Virus record (IMG/VR): IMGVR_UViG_3300037585_004313
Location: 1 to 43,526 of that record
DNA: 43,526 nt
Origin: a virus
Strand: one strand, 5' to 3'
The notes under the pieces were generated by a model, which saw nothing but the letters and a program-made list of their open reading frames with translations, was not told the DNA's origin and made no database searches. Shown here one piece after another: positions 6,637 through 43,526 of this stretch (within the stretch, counting starts at the first letter, position 1; every line of letters begins with the position of its first letter). The position numbers and the translations under genes were made by a program.

Positions 6637-7640
6637 TGGCTAAAACTAATGTTACATTTACAAACTTTGCTGCTAAAAAGTTACTTGGTAAAACTCAAGT
6701 TCGCCCATCTTTAACAGATGCTGAAGAAGCTTATCCTTCGAATGTTTCTGTTCCTGGTGCTGGTGTGTTTGCGGAAACTATCCCAAGAGAACCCGGAACA
6801 GAATTTTTTACTTTGCATTCAGCCTCAGCTGGCTCTCCTGCTACTGTTGAAAGGGTTTACTTTGATTGTGTGGCTATTTCTGATGGGTACTATGATGCTG
6901 ATGCGGCTTCTGCTGACGGTGGAGACGAATCACAGTCTGCTGGAAATCACGCATATTATTTAAAATTACCTTCAAATTATCAAACAACTTCATCTAATCC
7001 TAGTAGAGGAACTGGTAGTTTTGTTAATAACAAAAGACTTTATTTATCTCGTGGAGGTTTGCAATTAATTCCTCCTTTTACAACTGATGCTGGTCTTCCT
7101 GGATCTAGTGGTAATAACAATTATTTTGTTGAGCTGTATAAAGGAGATCCGACAAACCCTTCAAACAAGCTTTCTGAAACTGATTCAATTGATTGGCAAT
7201 TTGATTATTATTCTGGTATAATTTTTATACAAGATTATGATGCTTCAAAAATACCTTTAACTGCGTCTGCTTACTTATATGTTGGAAAATATCTAGATGA
7301 AAAAATAACAGACCTGTCTTCATCGATTGGAAGTGGAGGTGGAGACGTATCTTATGGTAGAACAGCGGTTACTACAACTATCACAGCTTCAACTTCAGCA
7401 AAAACACTAGGTGTTTCAGCTTCCGCCGCACTAGATATAAGACTACCAGCAGCTAGTGGCTATAGCGCCGGTCAATATTTTACAATAAAAGACGAAGGCG
7501 GAAATTCACATACAAATAATATAACAATAAAAACAACCGGAGATGACAAAATTGATGGGCAAAACTCCATTATCCTAGAATCACCCTATGCGGCTGTTAG
7601 TGTTTATTCCGATGGTTCCTCGAAATTCTTTATTTATTAG
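6636..7640 (+). CDS. Virion structural protein with a shared C-terminal beta module
   Basis: This 334-residue protein is encoded directly after the giant fibre, with ATG overlapping the previous TAA. Residues about 75-225 resemble a structural domain giving an ordered list of parameters (YYLKLPSNYQ, FVNNKRLYLSRGG, NNYFVELYKG, DWQFDYYSGIIFIQDYD). The last ~75 residues form a compact module (DIRLPAASGYSAGQYFTIKD ... IDGQNSIILES ... VSVYSDGSSKFFIY) that recurs at the C-terminus of the protein at 7722-9719 and, more weakly, in the protein at 13781-14266. Such modules often mediate trimerisation or attachment. No enzymatic motif is seen. Probably a fibre or baseplate accessory protein. Confidence 0.55.
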   Translation: MAKTNVTFTNFAAKKLLGKTQVRPSLTDAEEAYPSNVSVPGAGVFAETIPREPGTEFFTLHSASAGSPATVERVYFDCVAISDGYYDADAASADGGDESQSAGNHAYYLKLPSNYQTTSSNPSRGTGSFVNNKRLYLSRGGLQLIPPFTTDAGLPGSSGNNNYFVELYKGDPTNPSNKLSETDSIDWQFDYYSGIIFIQDYDASKIPLTASAYLYVGKYLDEKITDLSSSIGSGGGDVSYGRTAVTTTITASTSAKTLGVSASAALDIRLPAASGYSAGQYFTIKDEGGNSHTNNITIKTTGDDKIDGQNSIILESPYAAVSVYSDGSSKFFIY

Positions 7641-7660
7641 GTCGATAGCTGAACTAGATT

Positions 7661-7667
7661 CTATTTA
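7661..7667 (+). promoter_or_regulatory. Candidate late promoter motif CTATTTA
   Basis: CTATTTA lies in the 81-nt gap ahead of the structural gene at 7722, with 54 nt between motif and ATG. The same motif, usually preceded by A or AAA, recurs in six other gaps between virion genes. Its function as a late promoter is inferred from position only. Confidence 0.4.
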
Positions 7668-7721
7668 AAATCCGAGGCACTATGTCTCGATTATAACATA
7701 TTTTCTATGGAGGATTATAAT

Positions 7722-9719
7722 ATGGCTTATAAATTTTCAATTGGGGACCAAGTGCTAAGTGGTTCCATAACAATGAAGCAAGGTCTTACCGTACCAGCAG
7801 GTGGTACTGTGGCTTTGGAAGACGATGCTCTTCAATTAACTGATGTTGATATCGATGGGGGTACGAACTATGGTGCCCAAACCCTACACAAAACTCAAGA
7901 CAAGTTTCCAATGAGTGATAACGGTACTAATAAATCTATCACATTTTCGGATCTTGAAGATTCTATCTTCGCTAATGTTTCCGGTGATGCAACTGTTGCT
8001 GGTGGTGGTGCTTTGACCATTGCTAACGATGCCGTTGAGCAAGCAATGATCGCAGACGATGCCGTCGGTGCAGACCAATTAGCTTCAAATGCCGTTGTTA
8101 ATGCATCTGTGGCTTCAGGTGCTGCGATTGCTTTGAACAAATTAGCTGCTGTAAATAGTGGAAACATTATTGTTGGTAATGCTTCAAACCAAGCTGCTTC
8201 TGTTGCTATGTCTGGTGATGTTGCTATTTCTAACGCTGGTTTGACCACTATTCAAGCTGGTTCTGTTGAACATGGAATGCTTGCTGATGATATTATTTCT
8301 GGTCAAACAGAGTTGGCTCACGCTGATATCGCTGATTCTAATGACATGATGATTCACGACGGTGGAGTTGTCAAGAAAGTTGGTGTTGACAGTCTTCAGA
8401 ATCATTACTTCGGCAAAGTTAGCGGTGACGCTACAATCGCTGATGGTGGTGCTTTAACTCTTGCCGGTGCTCAAACTAATATTAGTTCTCTTCTCCGCAC
8501 AGACATCAAAATCGGTGAAGATGATCAAACTAAGATCGACTTCGAAACTGCTGATGAGATTCACTTTTATGCTTCTAATGCTGAACAGGTTTATGTTGCT
8601 GATGGAATCTTTGGACCAGAAACTAACAATGACGTAGATCTTGGTAGTAGTGCTGTTAAATTCAAGGATCTTTTTCTTGCTGGAACAGCTTCTATTGCTG
8701 GTGATTTACTTGTTCAAGGTACTTTAGTAACTCTTGATGTTGCAACTGTAGGTATTACCGGTTCTTTCTCTTTTGAAGGATCTACAGCTGATGGTAATGA
8801 AACAGTTCTTGGTGTAGTTGATCCAACAGGTGACAATACTATTAATCTTGCTAACTCAAGTGGAACTTTGATTCCATTCGCTGTTGCTTCAACAACAGTG
8901 ATCAGTGCAACTCCTGCTGAAATCAACTATCTTGACAATGATAATTTGGAAGCTGCTGACTTTACTAAATTAGCAAATGTTACTGCTACTGCTACTGAAA
9001 TCAACTATCTTGACAATGATAATTTGGAAGCTGCTGACTTTACTAAATTAGCAAATGTTACTGCTACTGCTGGTGAAATCAACTATCTTGATATCACAAC
9101 TCTTGGTACTGCTGCGGCTTCTAAAGCTCTTACTATCAAAGGTGATAGCACTTGGACTGTTGCTGGTATGACTTGCGCAAACCTTGGAACTGTAACTACT
9201 ATTGATATCAATGGTGGTACAATTGACAATGTGACATTGGCTGGTACAAACACAGTTAATATCGGTGGTCTTGATATCGATGGAGCGGCTGACATTAACT
9301 CAGCTCTTGTTGATGCTGACTTGTTTATTGTTGATAATGGTGCTGGTGGAACTAACCAAAAATGTGCAATGTCACGTCTTAAAACCTACATTGGTGGTGG
9401 GACATTGTCTGTAAATCAATATAATACAGGTTCCGTTGCTCAAGACTTAAATGGAGCTCCCGGTCTTTGGTGCCCATCATCTGAAGATGCTTCTTCATCA
9501 AATGCAGTAAGCCTACATCTTTCAGGTTCGTGGTCAGATGGTGATAAATTAATCATTAAAGCCCCAGGAAATGCGGCTACAAATAATTTAACAATTTATG
9601 CTTCTGGTTCTGGAGAAGATGGACAGTTAATTGATGGCGAGTCACAACTTGTATTAGAATCTAATTTTGCAGCTGTTACTTTAGTTTATGCTGGAACAGG
9701 AAACTGGTTCATCTACTAA
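7722..9719 (+). CDS. Repeat-containing tail-fibre-type structural protein
   Basis: This 665-residue low-complexity beta protein is rich in A, D, G, T and N. It carries fibre-type segments such as VSGDATVAGGGALTIANDAV, repeated in part near residue 230, and the widespread phage-fibre phrase ATAxEINYLD. The phrase is amplified by a near-identical 78-bp tandem repeat at 8919-9074. The C-terminal ~75 residues share the module of the protein at 6636-7640 (LVLESNFAAVTLVYAGTGNWFIY). An ATG 15 nt further upstream exists, but its second codon lies in the GGAGG ribosome binding site at 7709-7713, so 7722 is the start. Likely a fibre or shaft subunit. Confidence 0.6.
   Translation: MAYKFSIGDQVLSGSITMKQGLTVPAGGTVALEDDALQLTDVDIDGGTNYGAQTLHKTQDKFPMSDNGTNKSITFSDLEDSIFANVSGDATVAGGGALTIANDAVEQAMIADDAVGADQLASNAVVNASVASGAAIALNKLAAVNSGNIIVGNASNQAASVAMSGDVAISNAGLTTIQAGSVEHGMLADDIISGQTELAHADIADSNDMMIHDGGVVKKVGVDSLQNHYFGKVSGDATIADGGALTLAGAQTNISSLLRTDIKIGEDDQTKIDFETADEIHFYASNAEQVYVADGIFGPETNNDVDLGSSAVKFKDLFLAGTASIAGDLLVQGTLVTLDVATVGITGSFSFEGSTADGNETVLGVVDPTGDNTINLANSSGTLIPFAVASTTVISATPAEINYLDNDNLEAADFTKLANVTATATEINYLDNDNLEAADFTKLANVTATAGEINYLDITTLGTAAASKALTIKGDSTWTVAGMTCANLGTVTTIDINGGTIDNVTLAGTNTVNIGGLDIDGAADINSALVDADLFIVDNGAGGTNQKCAMSRLKTYIGGGTLSVNQYNTGSVAQDLNGAPGLWCPSSEDASSSNAVSLHLSGSWSDGDKLIIKAPGNAATNNLTIYASGSGEDGQLIDGESQLVLESNFAAVTLVYAGTGNWFIY
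8919..9092 (+). repeat. 78-bp tandem repeat, two full copies plus a partial third
   Basis: Copies at 8919-8996 and 8997-9074 are identical except for the last codon (act versus ggt), and a third copy begins at 9075 and diverges after about 18 nt. The unit is in frame and encodes 26 residues beginning EINYLDNDNLEAADFTKLAN. Near identity at DNA level implies a recent duplication or recombination hotspot in the fibre gene. Confidence 0.95.
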
Positions 9720-29200: not shown

Positions 29201-30204
29201 ACAAGGTAGAAATATTAGATAAAGAAATAGAAGCTATTTCAATTATAGATTTTATAAAAAGATTTTTTCTATATCTTGTAAAAGATATTTTCCAAGAAGT
29301 TTGTGTTAATACCGCCCAGCATAAAAGATTATCATTCAAGACAATGAGTTTAATGGCTATTGATGAAACTAACCCCGGGAATGACCCTCTATATACGTTA
29401 GTAAGCAAGCAATTGACAGAAAAACCAGAGATTAAAACTCCTATCTTAAATTTGGCAACATATCATAAAGAAGGACTCTTGCCACTAAGAACTTCTTCGA
29501 TATCTAGAAAAAGCTCGTCTGCTTCAGATTTTATAAATTATATGACTATTTTTGTTCACTACAGGCCTGATAAATTTACAGGACTAGGGATAAAATCTGA
29601 TGATGAAACAAGAGGAGTTTATCATTTCTTTATTGGAGCAGACAAGGGTTTGGTAAAGAAGATAAGTTTTTCAAAATCAGATATACAATATATGAGAGAA
29701 TCTAGAATGATGAATCAAGGCACTAACAACCTCCTCCAGTTGTCTTCTCAATATAGATGTAATTTGACTATGGTAGGCAATACGTTATTATACCCTGGAA
29801 TGGAGATATTTGTAAACCCGTATGGTTTTGGAGGACCAGAGTTTGGACAACCTAATGACGGCCCTGGAACTGTTGATGTGCCCAATTTATCCAACATTAT
29901 GGGTATTGGAGGCTATCAGCAGGTAATAAAGGTCAATTCCACTATAACTCCGGGAAAATTCGAAACAACTATAGATGCCATATTTATTCATTCCGGAGAA
30001 AAAGAAGAAGAAACGTCTTCTTCAAGCCCAAGAAGAACAATACCTAATAATAAGTTAAAAGACCTATGTGCTATTAATGATAAAAAAGCAGATTCTGCAA
30101 CAACCGAGAATTCTACTCTTGATTGCACAGAGATTATAACAAATGTAGAAAATTTGCTATTAGATTACTCTAGAACTGGTACTATAGATGGAGATGAAGA
30201 ATGA
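26248..30204 (+). CDS. Large baseplate structural protein with hub-like C-terminal domain
   Basis: This 1318-residue protein is the largest of the tail region. The N-terminal half is a mixed alpha/beta region with FYFTTDLANSHVYFLSIPED near the start and helical blocks around residues 400-520 (rich in Glu, Lys, Asp). The region FYLNLIDHDISISDQGTVTI (about residue 745) begins a beta-domain. The last 250 residues include NLTMVGNTLLYPGMEIFVNP, NIMGIGGYQQVIKVNSTITP and GKFETTIDAIFIHSGE, reminiscent of baseplate hub beta-barrels that end with a sticky strand. It is coupled to the LysM gene before it and to the next gene (ATGA). No lysozyme motif is seen. It probably merges functions spread over several T4 baseplate proteins, but no one-to-one homologue is claimed. 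Confidence 0.55.
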   Translation: MTKYGIKEYLTSKVNFNRDKLDFYFTTDLANSHVYFLSIPEDVGWTSAGDDDDYRFISNKEWVENGTVPEDFTKFSGDEEGKLTTFGELSAWARWILLSYTLGFSTPTGIVDSAATVYQDDGDLRELLGPVLKNEAVTRYTNSPYDANFISGRLLATFKLFNDKLGEEQTLDDIELEYFKIYHPLCKDIDFVKKLRIKITKTTGKSDFIADRFGIEKRFDFNSFAEEAQKLTTEQLARKGTETGKPILYSKYDSDGWYYSPKQGEKIQYSIDAAAKHPNLHNRLLEGSKTGGKEYYVSRERLRESQINDNAVFFDVLEFWDESLNFYELDHKFEDPGSGKLGDVYDPTTEVVDWGFDKTNIATGPDDVTFAYFLKFIDLIRLDIQDNELETSLGSRFTKLATQAKEYILPRLVRVYENKVRTEIARELERWTKAKDPQDLDENNVLNDAENAAIADLANLDTSELAQEDLTDEDISDRETKYKQCVLLLNLPELVADYNKEVMDKKKKKHSMHSDGLYNKRFTMVKDGSNPSDQNGIINKLILPKADKIEPFLNMTNELYAYLSPKIRLYKVFFDPTNEKNPHVTREIPFKAHTTTARAKLLSKGTTFDRGDGFGIKSFNFSFDGETPATSTKFIKAKLELFFQTFSDFTKEREVTIEGDTYKFRYVDLFVNTKFCPRMGANEGANVNSPLHYDPSHYRIRADVGWEFPERGVHGIMNRPSVVNGKKQLEDALNITNKSFYLNLIDHDISISDQGTVTISADYIAYIEGATGTRIMNALNSKEAKEFEQKQLKTYEEALQNESCDEAQLSELRAAIQGARVLSRKKLYQSLTEKLILNDCMYTCFVDKFDRKRFSNNQFFTKKPKLKQIPKVETINDKKTVKKVSNEIPNKSAENVEDKWSYIVSEHMTDPDPSLGTKVNFFFFADLVYFLLDSLYKEKNEFFPEVENIKVILTSFVLNLLGENEELLVNIGQIPIDLETFIDWYKVEILDKEIEAISIIDFIKRFFLYLVKDIFQEVCVNTAQHKRLSFKTMSLMAIDETNPGNDPLYTLVSKQLTEKPEIKTPILNLATYHKEGLLPLRTSSISRKSSSASDFINYMTIFVHYRPDKFTGLGIKSDDETRGVYHFFIGADKGLVKKISFSKSDIQYMRESRMMNQGTNNLLQLSSQYRCNLTMVGNTLLYPGMEIFVNPYGFGGPEFGQPNDGPGTVDVPNLSNIMGIGGYQQVIKVNSTITPGKFETTIDAIFIHSGEKEEETSSSSPRRTIPNNKLKDLCAINDKKADSATTENSTLDCTEIITNVENLLLDYSRTGTIDGDEE

Positions 30205-31376
30205 AATATAAAGGATCAAAAGATACAGAATCAACAAAGCAACTAGTCTCAGAGAGAGTAAAATATAAACTAGATCCCTTTAGAGATATAAGTAATGTTA
30301 TAGACTATAACTTTTCAGATAGAGTTTATTATGGTAGGATAAACAAGAATTATAATTCAATGTATGTTAATGAAGAAACCTTATCAGGTATTAATAATTC
30401 TATGAACCCACATAGTGCACCTAGGTGTGTTAATTTTGTAGCTGATGCTTTGCATGCATTTTTAAGAAAAATGGATCAAGCAAAACTCATGGGGAGAATC
30501 GATTCAGATTCTTTCTTTAACAACCTAAGAGTGCATAAAGCATATGAAAACCCACAAGAACTTTACGTATCTTTTGTAAATGAATACCTGAGTAGTTTTA
30601 ATAATTTAGTTAACAAAGAAAAAATAAATAATTTTAAGGATTGGATGGCTGGGTTAATAGACTGGAATACTAAAAATGGTTCAAATTTTCCATTAACCTT
30701 TTCTGGTTTTCAGAAATCTAAAAGATCTAATATTTTTACCTCTGGAATGGCTATAAGCTTCTCAAGTGAATCAGCTGATGATGATTCAATGAAAGAGAAG
30801 ATGTTTTTAAATGACAAACAACTAGAATTTTATTTAAGCGCTGCTAAACAATATGGATTCAATGTTCATCAAAATGCTCCATGGATTATTGTAGCAGATA
30901 TAAATTCACCAGCTATGTCATTATACACTAAAAAATATGATCTGTCAACAGAAAATGAAATATTTCTTAATAATTTTTCTTTATGTTATGAAAGAGATAT
31001 TGATTTATTAAAAAAATTATTACAACACAATTGGAAATTATATATAAGTAAAAATAAGAAAATAACTTTATTAGATACTAAATGTAATAAGACAAAAGTA
31101 AGCAATATATATATAAATAATAATATTAATATTAATAATATATATTATATAATAAATTATATAAATATAAGAAACACGGAAGAATATGGAAGGTATTCAA
31201 AACCAGAATTAGACAGAATAATTAAAAAAGCAATATTTTTTGAGAAAAAACTTGACAAATCTAAATCCATCAGTTATATTAATGAACAGTTTAGAGTTTT
31301 GAGCGTAAAACGACCCGGAACCTTAAATGATAAAATTAATATCACTCGGAGGAAAAATGATATTTCAGATAATTGA
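30201..31376 (+). CDS. Uncharacterised virion structural protein of T4-like marine type
   Basis: This 391-residue protein has a recognisable conserved pattern of uncharacterised structural proteins of T4-like phages: NFPLTFSGFQKSKRSNIFTS, GMAISF, KEKMFLNDKQLEFYLSAAKQ, YGFNVHQNAPWIIVADINSP. It overlaps the baseplate gene (ATGA). From residue about 298 the sequence becomes Asn/Ile/Tyr-rich (SNIYINNNININNIYYIINY), encoded by a nearly pure A+T stretch at 31093-31175, likely a low-complexity insertion. The 3' end carries a sigma70-like promoter (31252-31280) and overlaps the DNA polymerase start by 20 nt. Confidence 0.55.
   Translation: MKYKGSKDTESTKQLVSERVKYKLDPFRDISNVIDYNFSDRVYYGRINKNYNSMYVNEETLSGINNSMNPHSAPRCVNFVADALHAFLRKMDQAKLMGRIDSDSFFNNLRVHKAYENPQELYVSFVNEYLSSFNNLVNKEKINNFKDWMAGLIDWNTKNGSNFPLTFSGFQKSKRSNIFTSGMAISFSSESADDDSMKEKMFLNDKQLEFYLSAAKQYGFNVHQNAPWIIVADINSPAMSLYTKKYDLSTENEIFLNNFSLCYERDIDLLKKLLQHNWKLYISKNKKITLLDTKCNKTKVSNIYINNNININNIYYIINYINIRNTEEYGRYSKPELDRIIKKAIFFEKKLDKSKSISYINEQFRVLSVKRPGTLNDKINITRRKNDISDN
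31252..31280 (+). promoter_or_regulatory. Sigma70-type promoter inside the 3' end of the structural gene, driving the polymerase operon
   Basis: TTGACA (31252-31257), 17-nt spacer, TATATT (31275-31280), in the context AAAAAACTTGACAAA and GTTATATT shared with the other early-type promoters of this window. The predicted start is about 70 nt before the polymerase ATG. The sequence is simultaneously coding. Confidence 0.65.
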
Positions 31377-32532
31377 TGATAAGAAAGAGTGTCAAGGTTA
31401 TTTTGCAAATGGAAGATTAAGATTAAGAGATTTACCAGAGATCTTAGAAGCTACTTGGGACTGGTCTCCAATGATTGGAGATAAAGATGTCAAATTAGCA
31501 AGATTGTTTGCTCTCGGTCAAACGATACACCAAGCTTGTCCCGATCACCTAAAAGAGAGATTGGAGATAAGAGAACGAAAGATAAAGGCTCACCTAAAAT
31601 CTTTCATCTCATCTAAAGTAAATCTATCGGATGTTTGTTTTTATAAACTTGTTCCTGAGAGGGACATCCAACACTACTACAGTCTTTTAAACGAGATTAC
31701 CAAATGGATAATTGAGAATAACCAAAAACCTCAAAACTATCGCTTGATGCACAATATTAATATAATGTGTAAAGAACTTTCTCAACAAGAAATTCGCTTC
31801 AACCGACACAGATGGAAACAACATGCAAAAACAGATCAGAAAGCAATGTATCTTGTTAAGTCTCATTGGGAAGGAAAGTCTTTTGTTGATTATAACCCTT
31901 GGGGAACCGTTACTGGACGTTTAGGACTCAACCAAGGGTCTTTTCCTATTCTTAACCTTAAGACCTCACTAAAGGACATTATAGAGCCTAAGTGGGATTG
32001 CTTTGTAGAACTTGACTTTAATGGTGCCGAGTTGAGGACCCTACTACACCTCTCCGGACACCCACAACCCACAGGAGATATCCATGATTGGAATCAAAAT
32101 AACATTTTTAATAATTCTATTGAACGAGCTGATGCTAAGAAGAAGATTTTCGCATGGCTTTATAACCCAACTTCAACAGCAGTTGACACTGACTACTATG
32201 ATAAGTCAAAGGTCTTGGAGAAGCACTATGAGGAGGGAGTTGTCACTACTCCGTTTGGAAGAACAATACCTTCAGATGATTTCCATGCGCTTAACTACCT
32301 TATCCAATCTACATCTTCAGACAATTTCCTTGACAGAGCCTGTGCAATCCACAAATACTGTAAAAGACTCAAAACAAATGTAGCATTTCTTGTGCACGAT
32401 TCAATTGTATTAGACGTGCCACTTGATGAGAAGAACAGAATAAAAGAAATTGTTGAGATCTTCGAGAACACTAAGTTAGGAAAGTTCAAAGTCAATATCA
32501 ATGTTGGAAAGAACCTTGGAGAGTTGAAATGA
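31357..32532 (+). CDS. Family A DNA polymerase, polymerase domain only
   Basis: This 391-residue protein should extend DNA primers at the phage fork. The family A motifs are present in order: NPWGTVTGRLG (about residue 183), motif A ELDFNGAELR (about 219) with the metal-binding Asp, motif B RADAKKKIFAWLYN with the fingers Arg and Lys, and motif C LVHDSIVLDVP, where HDE of most members is HDS. Length corresponds to the Klenow polymerase part alone; no 3'-5' exonuclease domain is present, nor is a separate one visible in the window. T4 itself uses a family B polymerase, so this gene marks a different replication lineage; the far-T4 phage RM378 is reported to have a similar arrangement. CGGAGG lies 4 nt before ATG 31357; the upstream in-frame ATG (31327) lacks a site. 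Confidence 0.85.
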   Translation: MIFQIIDDKKECQGYFANGRLRLRDLPEILEATWDWSPMIGDKDVKLARLFALGQTIHQACPDHLKERLEIRERKIKAHLKSFISSKVNLSDVCFYKLVPERDIQHYYSLLNEITKWIIENNQKPQNYRLMHNINIMCKELSQQEIRFNRHRWKQHAKTDQKAMYLVKSHWEGKSFVDYNPWGTVTGRLGLNQGSFPILNLKTSLKDIIEPKWDCFVELDFNGAELRTLLHLSGHPQPTGDIHDWNQNNIFNNSIERADAKKKIFAWLYNPTSTAVDTDYYDKSKVLEKHYEEGVVTTPFGRTIPSDDFHALNYLIQSTSSDNFLDRACAIHKYCKRLKTNVAFLVHDSIVLDVPLDEKNRIKEIVEIFENTKLGKFKVNINVGKNLGELK

Positions 32533-33347
32533 TAACAATTGGACTTGGAAACGCTGGAATAAACATATGCCGTAAGCTTTCAAATTTGGGCAAATACAAG
32601 ACGATAGAGTTGCACGGCGGCAAAGGGTTGCCTGAATGTCAAACACATGAAGAATACGAAGCTAGCGTCCCTAAATTAGGAAACAAGCTACGACTTGGGA
32701 AAGACCAAGATATTTGGTTGATTGTATGTGGAGCTGCAAGAGTTTCTGGAACAACCTTAACAATTTTAGAACAAATCAAAGATCGTGAGGTTAAAGTAAT
32801 GTACATTGTGCCTGATTCTTTTTTTATGTCTGCAACACAAAAGAAACAACATAGAGTCGTTTTCAACGTTCTGCAAGAATATGCAAGATCTGGAATGATC
32901 CATTCACTTTGGCTTATTGATAACAAAGAGGCAACAAAAATAGTTGGAGAAGGCGCCCTTGGTTCATACTATGATAACACCAATTCAGCAATAGCAAACT
33001 TCCTTGCGAACTATAATTGGTTTAATAACACAGATCCAATTGTTGGCAATTTACATGAGCCAAAAGAGATATCAAGAATTCGTACCGTATCAATCGGAGA
33101 CATAGAAGAAAATGAAGAAAAGTTGTATTTTTTACTTGACAACATTATAGAATCATGTTATTATTATAGTATAAGTTCTGAAACAAAAGAGAACGATAAT
33201 AAACTTCTCTCAAGAATCAGATCTTATTTAGAAACAAAAGAACAAACAACTTTTGGAATTTGGGAAAACGCATCTAACCGTTCGTTTTTCTATTCTATAA
33301 AATTTACACATTATATACAGGAGAACATATGTCATACAAACCAATAG
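32529..33347 (+). CDS. Divergent FtsZ/tubulin-like protein
   Basis: This 272-residue protein reads like the GTPase half of FtsZ/tubulin. MITIGLGNAGINICRKL fits the first strand and glycine loop (IGVGGxGxN). DIWLIVCGAARVSGTTLTIL (residues 61-80) occupies the tubulin signature position (FtsZ: GGGTGTG) but is degenerate. VMYIVPDSFFMSATQKKQHR (90-109) fits the beta strand with the GKKR-type helix, and HSLWLIDNKEATKIVG with YYDNTNSAIANFLANY (147-162) fits the IPN strand and nucleotide-contacting helix. The short C-terminal part is not recognisable. The start overlaps the polymerase stop (ATGA) and the end overlaps the next gene by 19 nt. It is either a cytomotive filament (as TubZ/PhuZ) or a non-GTPase relative. 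The fold is judged by eye. Confidence 0.55.
   Translation: MITIGLGNAGINICRKLSNLGKYKTIELHGGKGLPECQTHEEYEASVPKLGNKLRLGKDQDIWLIVCGAARVSGTTLTILEQIKDREVKVMYIVPDSFFMSATQKKQHRVVFNVLQEYARSGMIHSLWLIDNKEATKIVGEGALGSYYDNTNSAIANFLANYNWFNNTDPIVGNLHEPKEISRIRTVSIGDIEENEEKLYFLLDNIIESCYYYSISSETKENDNKLLSRIRSYLETKEQTTFGIWENASNRSFFYSIKFTHYIQENICHTNQ
33136..33164 (+). promoter_or_regulatory. Sigma70-type promoter inside the tubulin-like gene, ahead of the GHKL ATPase
   Basis: TACTTGACAA with TTGACA at 33136-33141, 17-nt spacer, extended -10 TGTTATTAT with TATTAT at 33159-33164. It matches the promoter at 38360 over much of its length. Start would be about 160 nt before the GHKL ATG. It is within coding sequence. 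Confidence 0.5.
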
Positions 33348-35164
33348 TACCATCAAAAGAAAATCAAAAATCAGTCTTAACTGGCGTTATTGACTTATTA
33401 GCCGTTGGGATACCATTTCCATATGGACTAAGAGAGTTGATCCAAAATGGAATTGAATCTAACAATAGGAACAAACAAGACTCACTTAGTGAGGTCATAA
33501 TAACCACAGACCATAGGGAAGAATACAAAGACAAAATCTGTATAATAAATCGTGGTGGAGACACTTTGACTGAAGAAAAGTTTGATAGACACTTGTTGGA
33601 CCTTGCCAACTCAGGTAACAAGTTAGTGGTTGGTTCTAACCAGAAGCACGATGTAAACAAGGGAGTTGGTGCAAAACCGGGAGTTTGGCCTTTTCATAGA
33701 AAAGGGGTTTGCTACAATTCTACCAACAAAGACTATTTGTTTGATGACGATGGGGTCGATCTCCAGTATGGAATTAAAACTACAATTAGTAAAGAAAACA
33801 AAGATAATCTCTATTGCCAAGTTCAAGATTTTTGTGAAGAAGAACAGGAGGCAAGCTACTATCCTCGCTCAACAGACATTCACCCTTTGCTAAAAGGACA
33901 GTCTGGCACTTCTGTAACAATATATGGAAATACCGATGAAGAGGATACTTTTAAAAGATATGATAAGGCTTGTTCTTTGCAAGGTAGTTCTGGCGGTTCC
34001 GGCTACAGTATAGCAAAGTGGATAGACCACAGATATTTTACTATCGATCAAATAGTCAAAGTTGAACAAAAAGGTAAAGAGGATGGTGTGCATAAGGGCT
34101 GGTTGTATTGTAAAGGCATGAAGGATATTTTGCAAAACTATTCTTATGTGCATAATAACAAAAGACTTTACGGCACCACAGACTTAATTCACAAAGGTAT
34201 TAAAATTAAAGCACATTGGGCTGCAATTTATTTAGAAAAAGATGGCAAAGGGTATAATTCTAACAAAATATCTCACGGATTTACCGCACTGTGCTTTAAA
34301 GAAGAGCTCTATCATGACTATCATCGTGATAAAGGCAGCAAAACATCTGAAACAAAACGAACTGGATTATTAATTGAACCACAAAGGTATGTTGTCATTT
34401 ATGAGTTTCCAAGTGATTGTGACTTAAAAACAGATGTCAAAAGAACTGACTTATATTACAACGAACAAGAAAAAATAGATATTGAACAATTGCACAATCT
34501 TTTTAGCATGAACATACCTGTTGAGCTGAAAGAGTTTATGGCGAGTTTGTACGACCCATCTAGTCAAACTTCTATTGAAGATTTTATGAAAGACCAAATG
34601 AAAAAACTCAACAAACTCAACATGGGTGGTAGCGGTGTTGTCAAAAAGAAATTTGAAACAAGAAAAAGGGGCAATGGTAAAAAGAAGACCCCTGATCCTG
34701 ATCCAGATAGAGTCATTCAGCAACGTGAAAGAAGAAAGAAAAAAAACACTGGTAATACCGGAAACAAGTCTTTAAGAGATAAATTGAAAGACCTTGACCC
34801 ACCACAAGTCATTCCAGTTCAAGAATCTGAGTGGTTGGTTGATTTTACCACTAATGGTGACAATTATTCTATTTCTATTGGTGTTAATCACCCTGTCTAC
34901 TTAAATAGAAAAAAAGAAATTGAAAATGAGTATGGTCAAGTTCCTGATGAAATATCTGACTTGGTCATACAGGGTTATTTAGCCACTGCTGTCTTAAAAA
35001 GAGCAGTGGAGCTTGACAAATATTGCCCGACAAAACAAGAAATACAAGATAAGCTACAACCTGAAAAATTAGAAGCTCTTTGTAACTATGATCTAGGTGT
35101 CAAGATTGTCAAGTATGTGTCCAAACAGATTGAAAAGTACAATGCGATTAATATCGCAGCATAA
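33329..35164 (+). CDS. GHKL (Bergerat-fold) ATPase
   Basis: This 611-residue protein has the Bergerat ATP-binding fold of gyrase B, Hsp90, MutL and MORC proteins. The N box is RELIQNGIESNNR (Glu36, Asn40), the second box IINRGGDTLTEEKF (residues 72-85; Asn where Asp is usual), and the lid loop NKGVGAKPGVWPFHR (110-124). A transducer-like beta/alpha region follows (about 150-400), then a Lys/Arg-rich linker (GKKKTPDPDPDRVIQQRERR, about 450) and a helical C-terminus. No topoisomerase, kinase or endonuclease motif is evident. CAGGAG precedes the ATG. The gene overlaps the tubulin-like gene by 19 nt, so the two are likely translationally coupled. A role in DNA handling or chromatin-like remodelling is possible but not shown. 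Confidence 0.75.
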   Translation: MSYKPIVPSKENQKSVLTGVIDLLAVGIPFPYGLRELIQNGIESNNRNKQDSLSEVIITTDHREEYKDKICIINRGGDTLTEEKFDRHLLDLANSGNKLVVGSNQKHDVNKGVGAKPGVWPFHRKGVCYNSTNKDYLFDDDGVDLQYGIKTTISKENKDNLYCQVQDFCEEEQEASYYPRSTDIHPLLKGQSGTSVTIYGNTDEEDTFKRYDKACSLQGSSGGSGYSIAKWIDHRYFTIDQIVKVEQKGKEDGVHKGWLYCKGMKDILQNYSYVHNNKRLYGTTDLIHKGIKIKAHWAAIYLEKDGKGYNSNKISHGFTALCFKEELYHDYHRDKGSKTSETKRTGLLIEPQRYVVIYEFPSDCDLKTDVKRTDLYYNEQEKIDIEQLHNLFSMNIPVELKEFMASLYDPSSQTSIEDFMKDQMKKLNKLNMGGSGVVKKKFETRKRGNGKKKTPDPDPDRVIQQRERRKKKNTGNTGNKSLRDKLKDLDPPQVIPVQESEWLVDFTTNGDNYSISIGVNHPVYLNRKKEIENEYGQVPDEISDLVIQGYLATAVLKRAVELDKYCPTKQEIQDKLQPEKLEALCNYDLGVKIVKYVSKQIEKYNAINIAA

Positions 35165-36149: not shown

Positions 36150-36902
36150 ATGGCACTAAATCTAGAAGCGATGCGAGAAAAATTAAATGCATCAAAGAAC
36201 GGTAACAAAAAATCTAATGATACCAAATGGAAACCTGAACAAGGTGACCAAACAATCAGAATCCTTCCTACTAAGGATGGTGATCCGTTTAAGGAATACC
36301 ACTTTCACTATAATGTTGGGAAAAATCCCGGCATCATGTGTCCAAAGCGTAACTTTAATGAGGAGTGTCCAATTTGTGACTTTGCCTCTTCGCTCTGGAA
36401 AGAAGGTGTAACCAATAACGACGATACCGCTAAGCGTGAAGCAAAGAAGCTATTTGTTCGCAAGCGTTATTATTCACCGATCTTGGTTCGTGGAAGAGAG
36501 TCTGAAGGCGTCAAGATTTGGGCTTATGGAAAACAAGCTTATGAAACAATTCTAGGCTATGTTTGTGATCCCGATTATGGAGACATAACCGATGTTGAGT
36601 CTGGAACTGATATGGTATTAAATTACAATATCCCCGGAACTCCTGGATCTTTCCCTAAGACCATTCTTAAGCCACGTCGTCGTCCATCTGCTCTCTGCGA
36701 TGATGATGTTGCGGACTGTGAAGCCCTACTTGAATCTATACCTGATATAGGCGCACAGTTTGACCGCAAAACAACAGCTGATGTTCAAGCTTTATTGAAC
36801 GAAGCCCTTGCCTCTGACACTGGTGGTGGATCCTCCGAAACACACAAGTACGGTGGTGAGAAAGATGCTGTTGATGCAGCCTTTGATAAACTCACAGGCT
36901 AA
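36150..36902 (+). CDS. Single-stranded DNA-binding protein, gp32-like
   Basis: This 250-residue protein coats single-stranded DNA during replication and recombination. The basic N-terminal arm (MALNLEAMREKLNASKNGNK) supports cooperative binding. The zinc site is visible as a His (H51 or H53) followed by C64-x8-C73-x2-C76 (MCPKRNFNEECPIC), as in T4 gp32. The core continues with AKKLFVRKRYYSPILV and KIWAYGKQAYETILGYV, and the C-terminus is acidic with the ending DAVDAAFDKLTG. It is shorter than T4 gp32 (301). AAGGAG lies 8 nt upstream of the ATG. The gene is bounded by a structured leader and a strong terminator, consistent with its own regulation. Confidence 0.9.
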   Translation: MALNLEAMREKLNASKNGNKKSNDTKWKPEQGDQTIRILPTKDGDPFKEYHFHYNVGKNPGIMCPKRNFNEECPICDFASSLWKEGVTNNDDTAKREAKKLFVRKRYYSPILVRGRESEGVKIWAYGKQAYETILGYVCDPDYGDITDVESGTDMVLNYNIPGTPGSFPKTILKPRRRPSALCDDDVADCEALLESIPDIGAQFDRKTTADVQALLNEALASDTGGGSSETHKYGGEKDAVDAAFDKLTG

Positions 36903-37124: not shown

Positions 37125-37153
37125 GGGAGTCTCCTGTGTTGAAAATGACTCCC
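37125..37153 (+). promoter_or_regulatory. Hairpin in the uvsX leader
   Basis: GGGAGTC (37125-37131) pairs perfectly with GACTCCC (37147-37153) across 15 nt, without a T-tract, ending 11 nt before the AAGGA site of uvsX. It could be a translational control or mRNA processing site. Confidence 0.4.
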
Positions 37154-37174
37154 ACTCTAACAACAAGGACAACA

Positions 37175-38296
37175 ATGGCAAAAGTAATACACATGGCCCA
37201 AGTAAAACCGGGCAAGATCTCAATTAAAGATCTCAAAAAATCAATGAACAAGGCAATGGGCATCGATGCAGCATATGATCTCACAAAGGAGAGTCCAACC
37301 GAAGTAAAAGAATGGATACCTACAGGATCTCGATGGCTTGATTCAATTATATGTAAAGGTAAGATGGGAGGAATTCCTGTTGGTAAAATAACAGAAATCG
37401 CTGGACTCTCATCAGTTGGTAAGTCCTACTTGGCAGTTCAGATAGCTGCGCAAGCACAGAAGCAAGGAAAGTATGTAGTTTATTACGATGCAGAATCAGC
37501 AATCGATCCTGTATTTTTATTGGATGCTGGAATTGATTTGAACGGAAACTTTCTTTATGTCCAAGCAGTCTCAGTTGAGAAAGTACTTAAAGGAATTGAA
37601 GACACCATGAATGATTATCCGGGAATGCAATTTGTGTTTATCTGGGATTCAATAGCAGCAACGTCTGCTGAGAAAGACTTAGAAGGTGATTTCAACCCTC
37701 AATCTTCAATGGCAGTTAAGCCAAGAATCTTTTCAAAAGCCTTTCCAAAACTAACAATTCCTTTGGCTAATGGACAGCACACTTTGATTCTTATAAATCA
37801 GTTAAAAGATAACATTACATCAAACATAGCAGAAAAATTAACAAATCCTTACAATGCACCCGGAGGCAAGGCTCTTGAGTACTTCAGTTCTCTACGAATC
37901 TGGCTAACAGGTCGTAAGTCAAAACAATCATTTGTCTTTGATGAATCAGGAAGACGAGTTGGTTCTGAGGTCAAAGCAAAGATCAAGAAGTCTCGTTTTG
38001 GAACCCAAGATAGAATGGCAGTGTTTCAGATCCGTTGGGGTGATAACGTAGGGATCATGGACGAAGAGTCTTGGCTTGAGGTGATAAAGCAATCATCCAA
38101 TTATCGTGTTGGTGGTGGATGGTGTTACTTCAAAACAAAAGATGGTAAAGAACACAAGTTCCGTCAAAAAGAATGGATGGAAAAACTAAAAGATAAAAAG
38201 TTTAAAGAAATGGTGATTGATATCATGGATGAAGAACTAATAAAGAAATTTGAATCTTCTGGATCAAACATAGTACCAGAAGGGATAGAAGAATAA
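37175..38296 (+). CDS. uvsX: UvsX-type RecA family recombinase
   Basis: This 373-residue RecA/Rad51-superfamily ATPase pairs strands in recombination-dependent replication and repair. Walker A GLSSVGKS is at residues 77-84, preceded by ITEIA; Walker B is FVFIWDSIA (about 148), and the following DLEGDFNPQSSMAVKPRIFS is the loop 1 region. LILINQLKDNI matches the T4 UvsX stretch. Length is close to T4 UvsX (391). AAGGA precedes ATG 37175 by 5 nt; an upstream in-frame ATG at 37136 lies inside the leader hairpin. It functions with the neighbouring gp32-like SSB. No UvsY or UvsW is in the window. Confidence 0.9.
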   Translation: MAKVIHMAQVKPGKISIKDLKKSMNKAMGIDAAYDLTKESPTEVKEWIPTGSRWLDSIICKGKMGGIPVGKITEIAGLSSVGKSYLAVQIAAQAQKQGKYVVYYDAESAIDPVFLLDAGIDLNGNFLYVQAVSVEKVLKGIEDTMNDYPGMQFVFIWDSIAATSAEKDLEGDFNPQSSMAVKPRIFSKAFPKLTIPLANGQHTLILINQLKDNITSNIAEKLTNPYNAPGGKALEYFSSLRIWLTGRKSKQSFVFDESGRRVGSEVKAKIKKSRFGTQDRMAVFQIRWGDNVGIMDEESWLEVIKQSSNYRVGGGWCYFKTKDGKEHKFRQKEWMEKLKDKKFKEMVIDIMDEELIKKFESSGSNIVPEGIEE

Positions 38297-38411: not shown

Positions 38412-39344
38412 ATGAACAACTATAACTTAGGTTATGCTTGTATAAACAAGAGCTTCTCAGAACGCTCTAAGAAACAACGCATAACAACAAATCGTGGTAT
38501 GATAAGACGTACTTTTCTTGAGAAAGGTTTGTCTTATGTATCAGAACTGGCTTTGGCTAATTGCCAAGACTTAAAGAAAATACTAGAATGGAATGCAGAA
38601 CATGACATACACTTCTTTCGTATGTCATCTGGTTTGTTTCCATGGGGTTCGGAGTATGCATTTGAAGATCTACCAGACTACGAAGCAATTGCTGAAATCC
38701 TATTCGAATGTGGTCTATTTGCTGAGGAGAATGATATTCGTATCACAACTCACCCAGATCACTTCAACAAACTCACGTCTCCCAAGGAGTCTGTGATACT
38801 AAACACAATTAAAGACTTAGAACTACATGGTCGCATGTTCGACCTTCTATGTCTTGATAGAACACCTTACGCCAAAATCAACATACATGTAGGAGCAGCT
38901 TATGATGACAAACCTATGGCCCTTGATAACTTTTGCAAGAATTTTCAAAGATTATCAGAAGCAGTAAAAAGTAGACTAACAGTGGAGAATGACGACAAAA
39001 CGTCACTATATACTACAGAGGAACTGTACAATGATATCCATAAACGGATTAATATCCCTGTGGTATTTGACTACCATCATCACGATCTTCACCCTGGAGG
39101 GCAAACAGAGCGTGAAGCTCTGGACATGGCTCTTACTACTTGGCCTGTGGGCATCCGTCCTGTGGTGCATTACTCTGAATCCCGATCTGATGAATATGGG
39201 GATTCTAGAATCAAGCCACAAGCTCATTCTGATTCTTATGTTCGGCCCGTAAATACTTACGGATTGGAAATGGACATTATGCTAGAGGCTAAACACAAAG
39301 AGTTAGCTCTCTTTAAAATGCGTGAACTTATGGAGGATAAATAA
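38412..39344 (+). CDS. uvdE: UV damage endonuclease (UvdE/UvsE family)
   Basis: This 310-residue TIM-barrel endonuclease should nick DNA 5' of UV photoproducts and start repair of the phage DNA. Family features are present: LGYACINKSF at the start, FFRMSSGLFPWGS, ITTHPDHFNKL, KINIHVGAAYDDK, RLTVENDDKT with the metal-binding Glu, VVFDYHHHDLHPGG with Asp and His ligands, and RPVVHYSESR. Length matches bacterial UvsE (about 300). T4 uses the unrelated DenV instead. GGAGG lies 4 nt before the ATG. The gene leads an operon with its own strong promoter. Confidence 0.9.
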   Translation: MNNYNLGYACINKSFSERSKKQRITTNRGMIRRTFLEKGLSYVSELALANCQDLKKILEWNAEHDIHFFRMSSGLFPWGSEYAFEDLPDYEAIAEILFECGLFAEENDIRITTHPDHFNKLTSPKESVILNTIKDLELHGRMFDLLCLDRTPYAKINIHVGAAYDDKPMALDNFCKNFQRLSEAVKSRLTVENDDKTSLYTTEELYNDIHKRINIPVVFDYHHHDLHPGGQTEREALDMALTTWPVGIRPVVHYSESRSDEYGDSRIKPQAHSDSYVRPVNTYGLEMDIMLEAKHKELALFKMRELMEDK

Positions 39345-41806: not shown

Positions 41807-43526
41807 ATGGCTATAGAAAACAACATACTATCGGACATAACTGTCCATATGAAATACGCTCGTTATCTTCCAGAGCTAGAGAGAAGAGAAAACTGGGAAG
41901 AATTAGTTACCAGAAACAAGGAAATGCACATCAAAAAATTTCCCAGTTTAAAAGACACAATTGACTGGGCTTATCAATATGTCTATGATAAGAAAGTATT
42001 GCCTTCAATGCGATCAATGCAGTTCGGAGGTAAACCTATAGACGTGTCGCCTAATAGAATATTCAACTGTGCTTATGCTCCGATAGATCATATGAAAGTG
42101 TTTGGAGAAATTATGTTTCTTCTTCTCGGAGGAACTGGTGTAGGTTATTCTGTACAAAACCATCATGTCGAGAAACTTCCTGCAATCCACAAACCTTCGG
42201 GGAAAAGAACAAGACGATATCTTATTGGAGATTCAATTGAAGGATGGTCTGATTCTGTTAATGCACTGATGAAGGTCTATTTTACTGGTGGCTCTAAGTT
42301 ACGATTTGACTTCTCAGACATCCGACCAAAGGGTGCAAGACTAGTTACTAGTGGAGGCAAAGCTCCCGGCCCACAGCCTTTGAAAGAATGTCTCCTTAAA
42401 GTACAAGGAATTTTAGATGGAAAAGAAAATGGTGACCAACTTACCACAATTGAAGTCCACGATATTATCTGCTACATCGCAGACGCTGTATTGGCCGGTG
42501 GTATTCGCAGGGCTGCTCTCATTAGTTTATTTAGTGCTACTGATCAACATATGCTTAGTGCTAAATCAGGTAAATGGTATGAAACAAACCCCCAACGTGG
42601 AAGAGCAAACAACTCGGTAGTTATAATGAGACACAGAATAGACAAGGATACATTCCTTGACCTCTGGGATCGTGTAAAAGCTTCCGGTGCTGGAGAACCA
42701 GGGTTCTATTTTACAAATGATAAAGACTATGGTTGTAACCCATGTTGTGAGATATCTTTAAGACCGTTTCAGTTCTGCAACCTCACAGAGATCAATGTTT
42801 CTGATGTTGAAGACCAAGATGATCTAGACAACAGAGCACAAGCAGCTGCTATCATAGGAACGTTACAAGCAGCCTACACTGACTTTCACTATCTTCGTCC
42901 CGTTTGGAAAAGAAACACAGAGAAAGATTATTTGATCGGAGTTTCAATGACAGGCATAGCATCAGGGAAAGTCCTTGAGTTAGATATGTCAAGAGCAGCA
43001 AAGTGTGTGAAAGAATTAAATGCACAAGTAGCTAAAGAGATTGGAATAGGTCCTGCTTCACGTTGCACAACAGTTAAGCCAGCAGGAACAACATCACTTA
43101 CTTTAGGAACATCATCGGGAATTCATGCGTGGCATAACGACTATTATCTACGCAGAATCCGCGTAGGAAAGAGTGAATCAATTTATACATATCTCCAAGT
43201 AAATCATCCAGAGTTAATCGAGGATGAGTTCTTCAGACCTCACGACACTGCTGTGATCTCTGTACCACAGAAAGCACCAGAGGGATCAATTACTCGCCAC
43301 GAATCAGCATTGGATCTCTTGGAGAGAGTAAAGAAAGTCCATCTCGAATGGGTAAAAGTAGGACATAGAAAAGGTCAAAACACTAATAATGTATCGGCCA
43401 CTATTACTATCAAACCTGACGAGTGGCAAGAGGTTGGAGACTGGATGTGGGATAACAAGCATAACTATAATGGTTTGTCTGTTCTTCCTTATTCAGACCA
43501 CTCTTACAAGCAAGCTCCTTTTGAGG
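41807..43526 (+). CDS. nrdJ: Class II (B12-dependent) ribonucleoside-triphosphate reductase, partial
   Basis: This open frame runs off the window end after 573 codons (3' truncated by the window). It should make deoxynucleotides for replication, with adenosylcobalamin as radical source. Family features: PSMRSMQFGG, IFNCAYAPID (Cys88), FLLLGGTGVGYSVQ, NPCCEISLRPFQFCNLTEIN (radical-site and redox Cys), and KPAGTTSLTLGTSSGIHAWH (nucleotide-binding). The pattern is that of monomeric RTPR, about 740 residues long. T4 uses class I NrdAB. AAGGAG lies 7 nt before the ATG, 15 nt after the helicase stop. Confidence 0.88.
   Translation, partial: MAIENNILSDITVHMKYARYLPELERRENWEELVTRNKEMHIKKFPSLKDTIDWAYQYVYDKKVLPSMRSMQFGGKPIDVSPNRIFNCAYAPIDHMKVFGEIMFLLLGGTGVGYSVQNHHVEKLPAIHKPSGKRTRRYLIGDSIEGWSDSVNALMKVYFTGGSKLRFDFSDIRPKGARLVTSGGKAPGPQPLKECLLKVQGILDGKENGDQLTTIEVHDIICYIADAVLAGGIRRAALISLFSATDQHMLSAKSGKWYETNPQRGRANNSVVIMRHRIDKDTFLDLWDRVKASGAGEPGFYFTNDKDYGCNPCCEISLRPFQFCNLTEINVSDVEDQDDLDNRAQAAAIIGTLQAAYTDFHYLRPVWKRNTEKDYLIGVSMTGIASGKVLELDMSRAAKCVKELNAQVAKEIGIGPASRCTTVKPAGTTSLTLGTSSGIHAWHNDYYLRRIRVGKSESIYTYLQVNHPELIEDEFFRPHDTAVISVPQKAPEGSITRHESALDLLERVKKVHLEWVKVGHRKGQNTNNVSATITIKPDEWQEVGDWMWDNKHNYNGLSVLPYSDHSYKQAPFE

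Follow-up and report, generated by a model that had tools for sequence, protein, structure and literature searches.

A divergent tubulin/FtsZ-fold protein encoded beside the DNA polymerase in a Far-T4-like lineage of uncultured phages

Results

A replication cluster with three overlapping genes

The window analysed here is the whole 43.5 kb of an IMG/VR record, and encodes a gp23-type capsid protein whose nearest deposited relatives come from the uncultured 484-kb phage LR756508, Microcystis phage Mel-JY01, the Flavobacterium immuto phages and RM378, which places it in the Far-T4 neighbourhood described previously (PMC4360716). The window's replication genes follow an order common to its relatives, namely polymerase, tubulin-like gene, gp32, uvsX, exonuclease, helicase and ribonucleotide reductase (RNR), and the features that concern us are the following.

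31252..31280, + strand, promoter-like site TTGACA-17-TATATT before the polymerase gene, inside the upstream gene (consensus match)
31357..32532, + strand, family A DNA polymerase, polymerase domain only, 391 aa (Pfam DNA_pol_A, 1e-13)
32529..33347, + strand, tubulin/FtsZ-fold protein, 272 aa, core gene of the lineage (AlphaFold model, Foldseek)
33136..33164, + strand, intragenic promoter-like site TTGACA-17-TATTAT inside the tubulin-like gene (consensus match)
33329..35164, + strand, GHKL-type ATPase, 611 aa, outside the conserved module (distribution in relatives)
36150..36902, + strand, gp32-like ssDNA-binding protein, the next conserved cluster gene (Pfam gp32, 2.3e-15; synteny)
37136..38296, + strand, UvsX/RecA-like recombinase (Pfam RecA, 2.9e-38; phrog_97, 1.2e-60)

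Around these genes lie a UvdE UV-damage endonuclease gene (38412-39344; Pfam 1.5e-62), found in few of the relatives inspected, and a gene for an RNR large subunit with a B12-dependent (class II) insertion domain, which extends past the end of the window (41807-43525). The gene before the polymerase (30201-31376) evolves fast, with dN/dS values of 0.39-0.67 and 28-48% identity where neighbouring genes share 79-99%.

Reading the DNA directly bears out the three open reading frames and both overlaps reported in the initial annotation, of 4 nt and 19 nt. The polymerase starts at ATG 31357, just downstream of the ribosome-binding site cGGAGGaaaa; a longer start at 31327 is absent from the related locus L003. 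The ATG of the tubulin-like gene (32529) overlaps the polymerase stop within the four letters ATGA, and that of the GHKL gene (33329), which stands behind aGGAGaacat, overlaps the stop of the tubulin-like gene by 19 nt. Because four-nucleotide gene overlaps are frequent in phages, the first of these proves little by itself. Evidence beyond chance comes from conservation across loci, and it holds for the polymerase and the tubulin-like gene only. No open reading frame fusing the two was found.

The polymerase was correctly named: in addition to the Pfam match, all three family A motifs, A, B (RxxxKxxxFxxxY) and C, are present, and residues R257, K261, F265, Y269, D220 and D348 are invariant in an alignment of its relatives. 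Read from its motif, the enzyme appears to be of the Phe762 type in a published scheme (PMC6302109).

A shrunken relative of tubulin and FtsZ

Neither Pfam nor PHROG holds a family for the protein encoded downstream of the polymerase, and no sequence match to it was found in deposited phages. The label "tubulin-like" that it had been given is nonetheless confirmed by structure prediction. An AlphaFold (AF2) model built from 71 sequences has a pLDDT of 91.8 and contains the elements of the superfamily fold (N-terminal GTPase domain, H7, C-terminal domain), and its 50 best Foldseek matches among solved structures are all FtsZ, CetZ or tubulin, with E values of 1e-10 to 1e-8, a probability of 1.00 and a TMq of about 0.7 over the full length. 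Given this model confidence and these matches, the assignment to the tubulin fold is as secure as a confident prediction allows. The Pfam Tubulin profile reached at best 0.003 against the relatives, in 5 of 71, and weak collinear matches to CetZ and FtsZ fall in the pocket segments. In a search of 24 whole records no Tubulin match rose above the cut-off, and hence no second canonical tubulin was detected; the weak matches fell on the tubulin-like gene itself.

The nucleotide pocket and the catalytic motifs have fared differently, as seen at the following positions.

32541..32564, + strand, T1 loop GLGNAGIN, residues 5-12 (G5, G7 and G10 invariant, 71/71)
32727..32750, + strand, T4 or tubulin signature position CGAARVSG, residues 67-74 (aligned to FtsZ GGGTGTG; G68 invariant)
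32922..32924, + strand, N132, aligned with the FtsZ IPND asparagine, a guanine contact (invariant, 71/71)
32982..32984, + strand, N152, in helix H7, a guanine contact (invariant, 71/71)
33027..33077, + strand, region replacing the T7 loop and helix H8, residues 167-183 (DSSP of the model: no helix; no NxDxx[DE])

The positions of FtsZ and CetZ to which N132 and N152 align are guanine contacts. The canonical GGGTG[STA]G motif occurs in none of 71 family members, which carry a CGxGxxSG-like stretch instead; an NxDxx[DEK] motif occurs in one, the position of the T7 catalytic acid is acidic in none, and the model of the window protein lacks a helix equivalent to H8 after H7. Since the pocket residues are kept while the T4 and T7 motifs and H8 are lost, nucleotide binding is predicted to be likely and canonical hydrolysis between subunits is not; a treadmilling, PhuZ-like motor is likewise unlikely, because both GGGTGSG and the catalytic acid of the T7 loop are absent.

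The protein forms a family of its own, reduced in size relative to tubulin and FtsZ, with which it shares the fold. The family is present in more than 570 viral contigs. A scan of 84,980 prokaryote species with one pattern returned no cellular homologues. No description of the family was found in the full-text literature searched, and an earlier one may exist.

The tubulin-like gene is inseparable from the polymerase gene in its lineage

In searches that started from the tubulin-like gene, the polymerase was the nearest recognised upstream gene in 84 of the 85 loci with more than 400 nt of upstream sequence, the sole exception being a truncated locus. In searches that started from the polymerase, a tubulin-like gene lay downstream in 75 of 80 loci and the remaining five stop after no more than 281 nt, so that every locus with enough downstream sequence (75/75) carries it. 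The loci scored were drawn from searches of limited size, in which at least 447, at least 571 and at least 548 relatives were confirmed, each time among about 600 pattern matches listed. They are not independent: among the matches listed, all have the same replication-gene backbone and belong to the same polymerase clade. The conservation in unrelated backbones that the initial annotation had named as support for a functional module was not seen. What it had said of a filament-type protein tied to a polymerase stands for the genetics, as an invariant linkage in one phage clade, and for the fold. The phages that carry the gene are uncultured relatives of T4 and make up a large, Far-T4-like lineage.

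Within this lineage the tubulin-like gene is single-copy in five records of 120-192 kb, and is under purifying selection (dN/dS 0.06-0.17) close to that on the polymerase (0.08-0.12). The pair is kept even where other genes, including HNH-type endonucleases, have been inserted between or after its members. Tight translational coupling is not universal, since many members of the family have one or more small genes between the two. HNH/homing-type endonuclease genes sit exactly between polymerase and tubulin-like gene at 4172-4639 of locus L002 and at 7546-8004 of locus L022, and a glutamine-synthetase-like gene (622-1725; Pfam 7.8e-22) adjoins the tubulin-like gene in L007.

The GHKL gene lies outside the conserved module

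The initial annotation had placed the polymerase, the tubulin-like protein and the GHKL ATPase in a single module, a proposal of which the first two members survive (75/75 and 84/85 loci) and the third does not. The name of the GHKL protein itself is partly upheld: the window protein has no direct match to HATPase_c_3, whereas its 52%-identical homologue in L022 matches that profile at 2.4e-6 and 5.5e-4, both below the curated cut-off, which makes the label probable. Across 50 records, HATPase_c_3 gave any match in 8 and a match above the curated cut-off in 6, and one of the other two, in record G046, was set aside as spurious; among nine large records the gene was found in one.

Most relatives lack a GHKL gene. 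The sole orthologue of the window type that was found, at 6775-8595 of the L022 contig, lies about 27 kb from the tubulin-like gene of that contig (35259-36095) and adjoins an adenosine deaminase gene. GHKL proteins of two further groups occur after the tubulin-like gene (L003) and between gp32 and uvsX (L007, L010, L023 and L026). Across relatives the GHKL gene is therefore mostly apart from the pair, an outcome named beforehand as the mark of a chance neighbour, and its adjacency in the window is best read as accidental. Some of the GHKL proteins between gp32 and uvsX, of about 550 aa (L007, 4372-6018; L102, 277-1917; L103, 340-2004), have a D...ExK stretch in the C-terminal part that, judged by eye, may be nuclease-like.

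PADLOC returned nothing for the window-type protein and, for the other GHKL types, only weak MzaB, TmtA and REase_II ATPase-domain matches; no homologues of the GHKL proteins were found among solved structures. The gene is probably exchangeable, recently gained cargo with an rIIA-like role in counter-defence. The rIIA group, poorly understood and thought to act in counter-defence, combines a GHKL domain with a highly variable C-terminus (PMC7824862), and the window's protein would resemble T4 rIIA in its probable N-terminal GHKL domain and variable C-terminus. The likeness, which concerns this neighbour only, is one of description, and no sequence match was established.

Promoter-like sites frame the pair

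All promoter-like sites here are based on consensus matching. Of 65 relatives, 52 have a site similar to that at 31252 no more than 220 nt upstream of the polymerase, compared with 10% of random stretches, and a comparable intragenic site is present in 77 of 95 tubulin-like genes, mostly about 600-640 nt into the gene, although these counts come from related loci and are not independent. Of 40 cases of LDN or LDT at the intragenic site, 39 are encoded with CTTGACA; this retention at synonymous sites suggests selection on the DNA. The site is also found in relatives that have no GHKL gene there. On this reading, polymerase and tubulin-like protein would form one unit, and the cargo or gp32 that follows would start from the intragenic site. 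Sites of the form TTGACA-16/17-TATAWT recur on the + strand of the window at 31252, 33136, 35184, 35428, 35560, 38360 and 40386, several of them with TG before the second hexamer, and are probably the phage's host-sigma promoters, judging from their match to consensus.

Sister phages carry a different gene after the polymerase

A search seeded with the Mel-JY01 polymerase identified phages that have polymerase, gp32, UvsX, exonuclease and helicase in the same order and lack the tubulin-like gene. In a polymerase tree, 63 carriers of the gene and 67 non-carriers form completely separate groups. In the non-carriers, a conserved protein of about 130 aa (p130), unrelated to the tubulin-like protein, follows the polymerase, as in these sister phages without the tubulin-like gene.

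L212, 6282-6674, p130
L018, 1346-1801, p130
L017, 7813-8256, p130

It was present in all non-carrier records tested (G051, G052, G056, Mel-JY01, immuto and LR756508), and 20 or more carrier records yielded no credible match. A match in G022 (0.0035) was disregarded on account of an in-frame stop, and one in RM378 (0.0099) as a fragment only. The AlphaFold model of p130 is confident, and searches of Pfam, PHROG, PDB sequences and Foldseek gave nothing convincing, so p130 was dropped as a recognisable accessory factor. An attractive reading of the gene orders is that p130 and the tubulin-like protein may replace one another as polymerase-adjacent factors; their complementary distribution could instead mark lineage. 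No T4 sliding clamp (PF02916) was found in ten records from either lineage, a weak negative, as no control genome scored above the cut-off either.

Discussion

This protein invites comparison with PhuZ and the phiKZ-type TubZ of nucleus-forming jumbo phages, which likewise bring a tubulin/FtsZ fold into large tailed phages; the BFVD matches of our model include PhuZ of phage Noxifer. The protein described here differs from them in having no sequence match to them, in lacking the T7 catalytic acid, H8 and the C-terminal assembly tail, and in being encoded always beside a family A polymerase, in phages with T4-type capsids. The best solved structures matched are those of FtsZ and archaeal CetZ (1w59 and 4b45, E 1e-10), with which the pocket asparagines align, yet the phage protein has neither GGGTGSG nor NxDxxD and shares only about 9-16% identity with them in structural alignments. 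Among the Far-T4 phages, Mel-JY01 and the immuto phages share the replication gene order, but like RM378 they lack the tubulin-like gene, and in Mel-JY01 and the immuto phages p130 follows the polymerase.

We regard it as an even call that the protein acts as a GTP-bound scaffold or adaptor at the replication machinery. Such a protein would be made together with the polymerase through translational coupling, would be predicted to bind GTP (or GDP) without canonical hydrolysis-driven treadmilling, and would keep the polymerase or the replicating DNA anchored; its task may be the one that p130 has in the sister phages. It is gene order alone that points to possible contact between the two proteins. 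A narrower idea, to which we give about half that credence, is that the fold serves as a dedicated accessory subunit of the phage DNA polymerase (in processivity, anchoring or GTP-gated control), a use for which no description was found in the literature searched.

The initial annotation had named positioning or segregation of replicating phage DNA among several possible roles, and a dynamic, cytomotive filament of the PhuZ/TubZ type whose altered T7 geometry still polymerises is a possibility that we hold at a similarly modest level. The fold is the same, the gene lies in a replication cluster, and the roles known for phage tubulins are to centre DNA or to partition the phage genome (PMC13282480, PMC3678025, PMC7824862). 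The proposal is weakened, however, by the loss of the catalytic acid throughout the family (71/71), of NxDxx in all but one of 71 members, and of H8 in the model; in addition, the protein ends near residue 265-290, short of the C-terminal helix and tail with which PhuZ assembles (PMC3678025), and whereas PhuZ is dispensable in many nucleus-forming phages (PMC13282480), the tubulin-like gene is universal in its own clade. The same asymmetry, in which the nucleotide face is kept and the opposite longitudinal face (T7/H8) is lost, means that a host filament could be terminated by the protein; lambda Kil (PMC3961180) is a known case of a phage inhibiting FtsZ. That the protein is a decoy, stopping division by capping or poisoning the FtsZ ring of the host, is nevertheless unlikely, as takeover genes are usually variable and early, while this one is invariant, keeps its place in line with the polymerase and evolves under strong purifying selection, and its similarity to E. 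coli FtsZ is too low for contact to be predicted.

Slightly less probable still is plain operon inheritance of a GTP-sensing or nucleotide-pool protein without a direct role at the polymerase: the cluster also includes RNR and all occurrences come from one lineage, but the neighbourhood of the polymerase has been kept despite frequent insertions between or after the pair. As for a three-part machine of polymerase, tubulin-like protein and GHKL ATPase, which the overlapping genes of the window would seem to announce, we consider it very improbable, given that most relatives lack a GHKL gene, that the orthologue lies about 27 kb away and other GHKL types elsewhere, and that the intragenic promoter-like site occurs also where no GHKL gene follows.

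What the known phage tubulins move is DNA, or entire phage nuclei. The distinct family described here, which has the tubulin fold and has kept the nucleotide pocket but lost the catalytic loop, is a core gene beside the polymerase in a widespread lineage of uncultured T4-like phages. Should the protein indeed act at the replication fork or at the replication centre, the tubulin superfamily would gain a task other than that of a motor, and the protein would provide a handle on how replication is organised in phages whose family A enzyme consists of the polymerase domain only.
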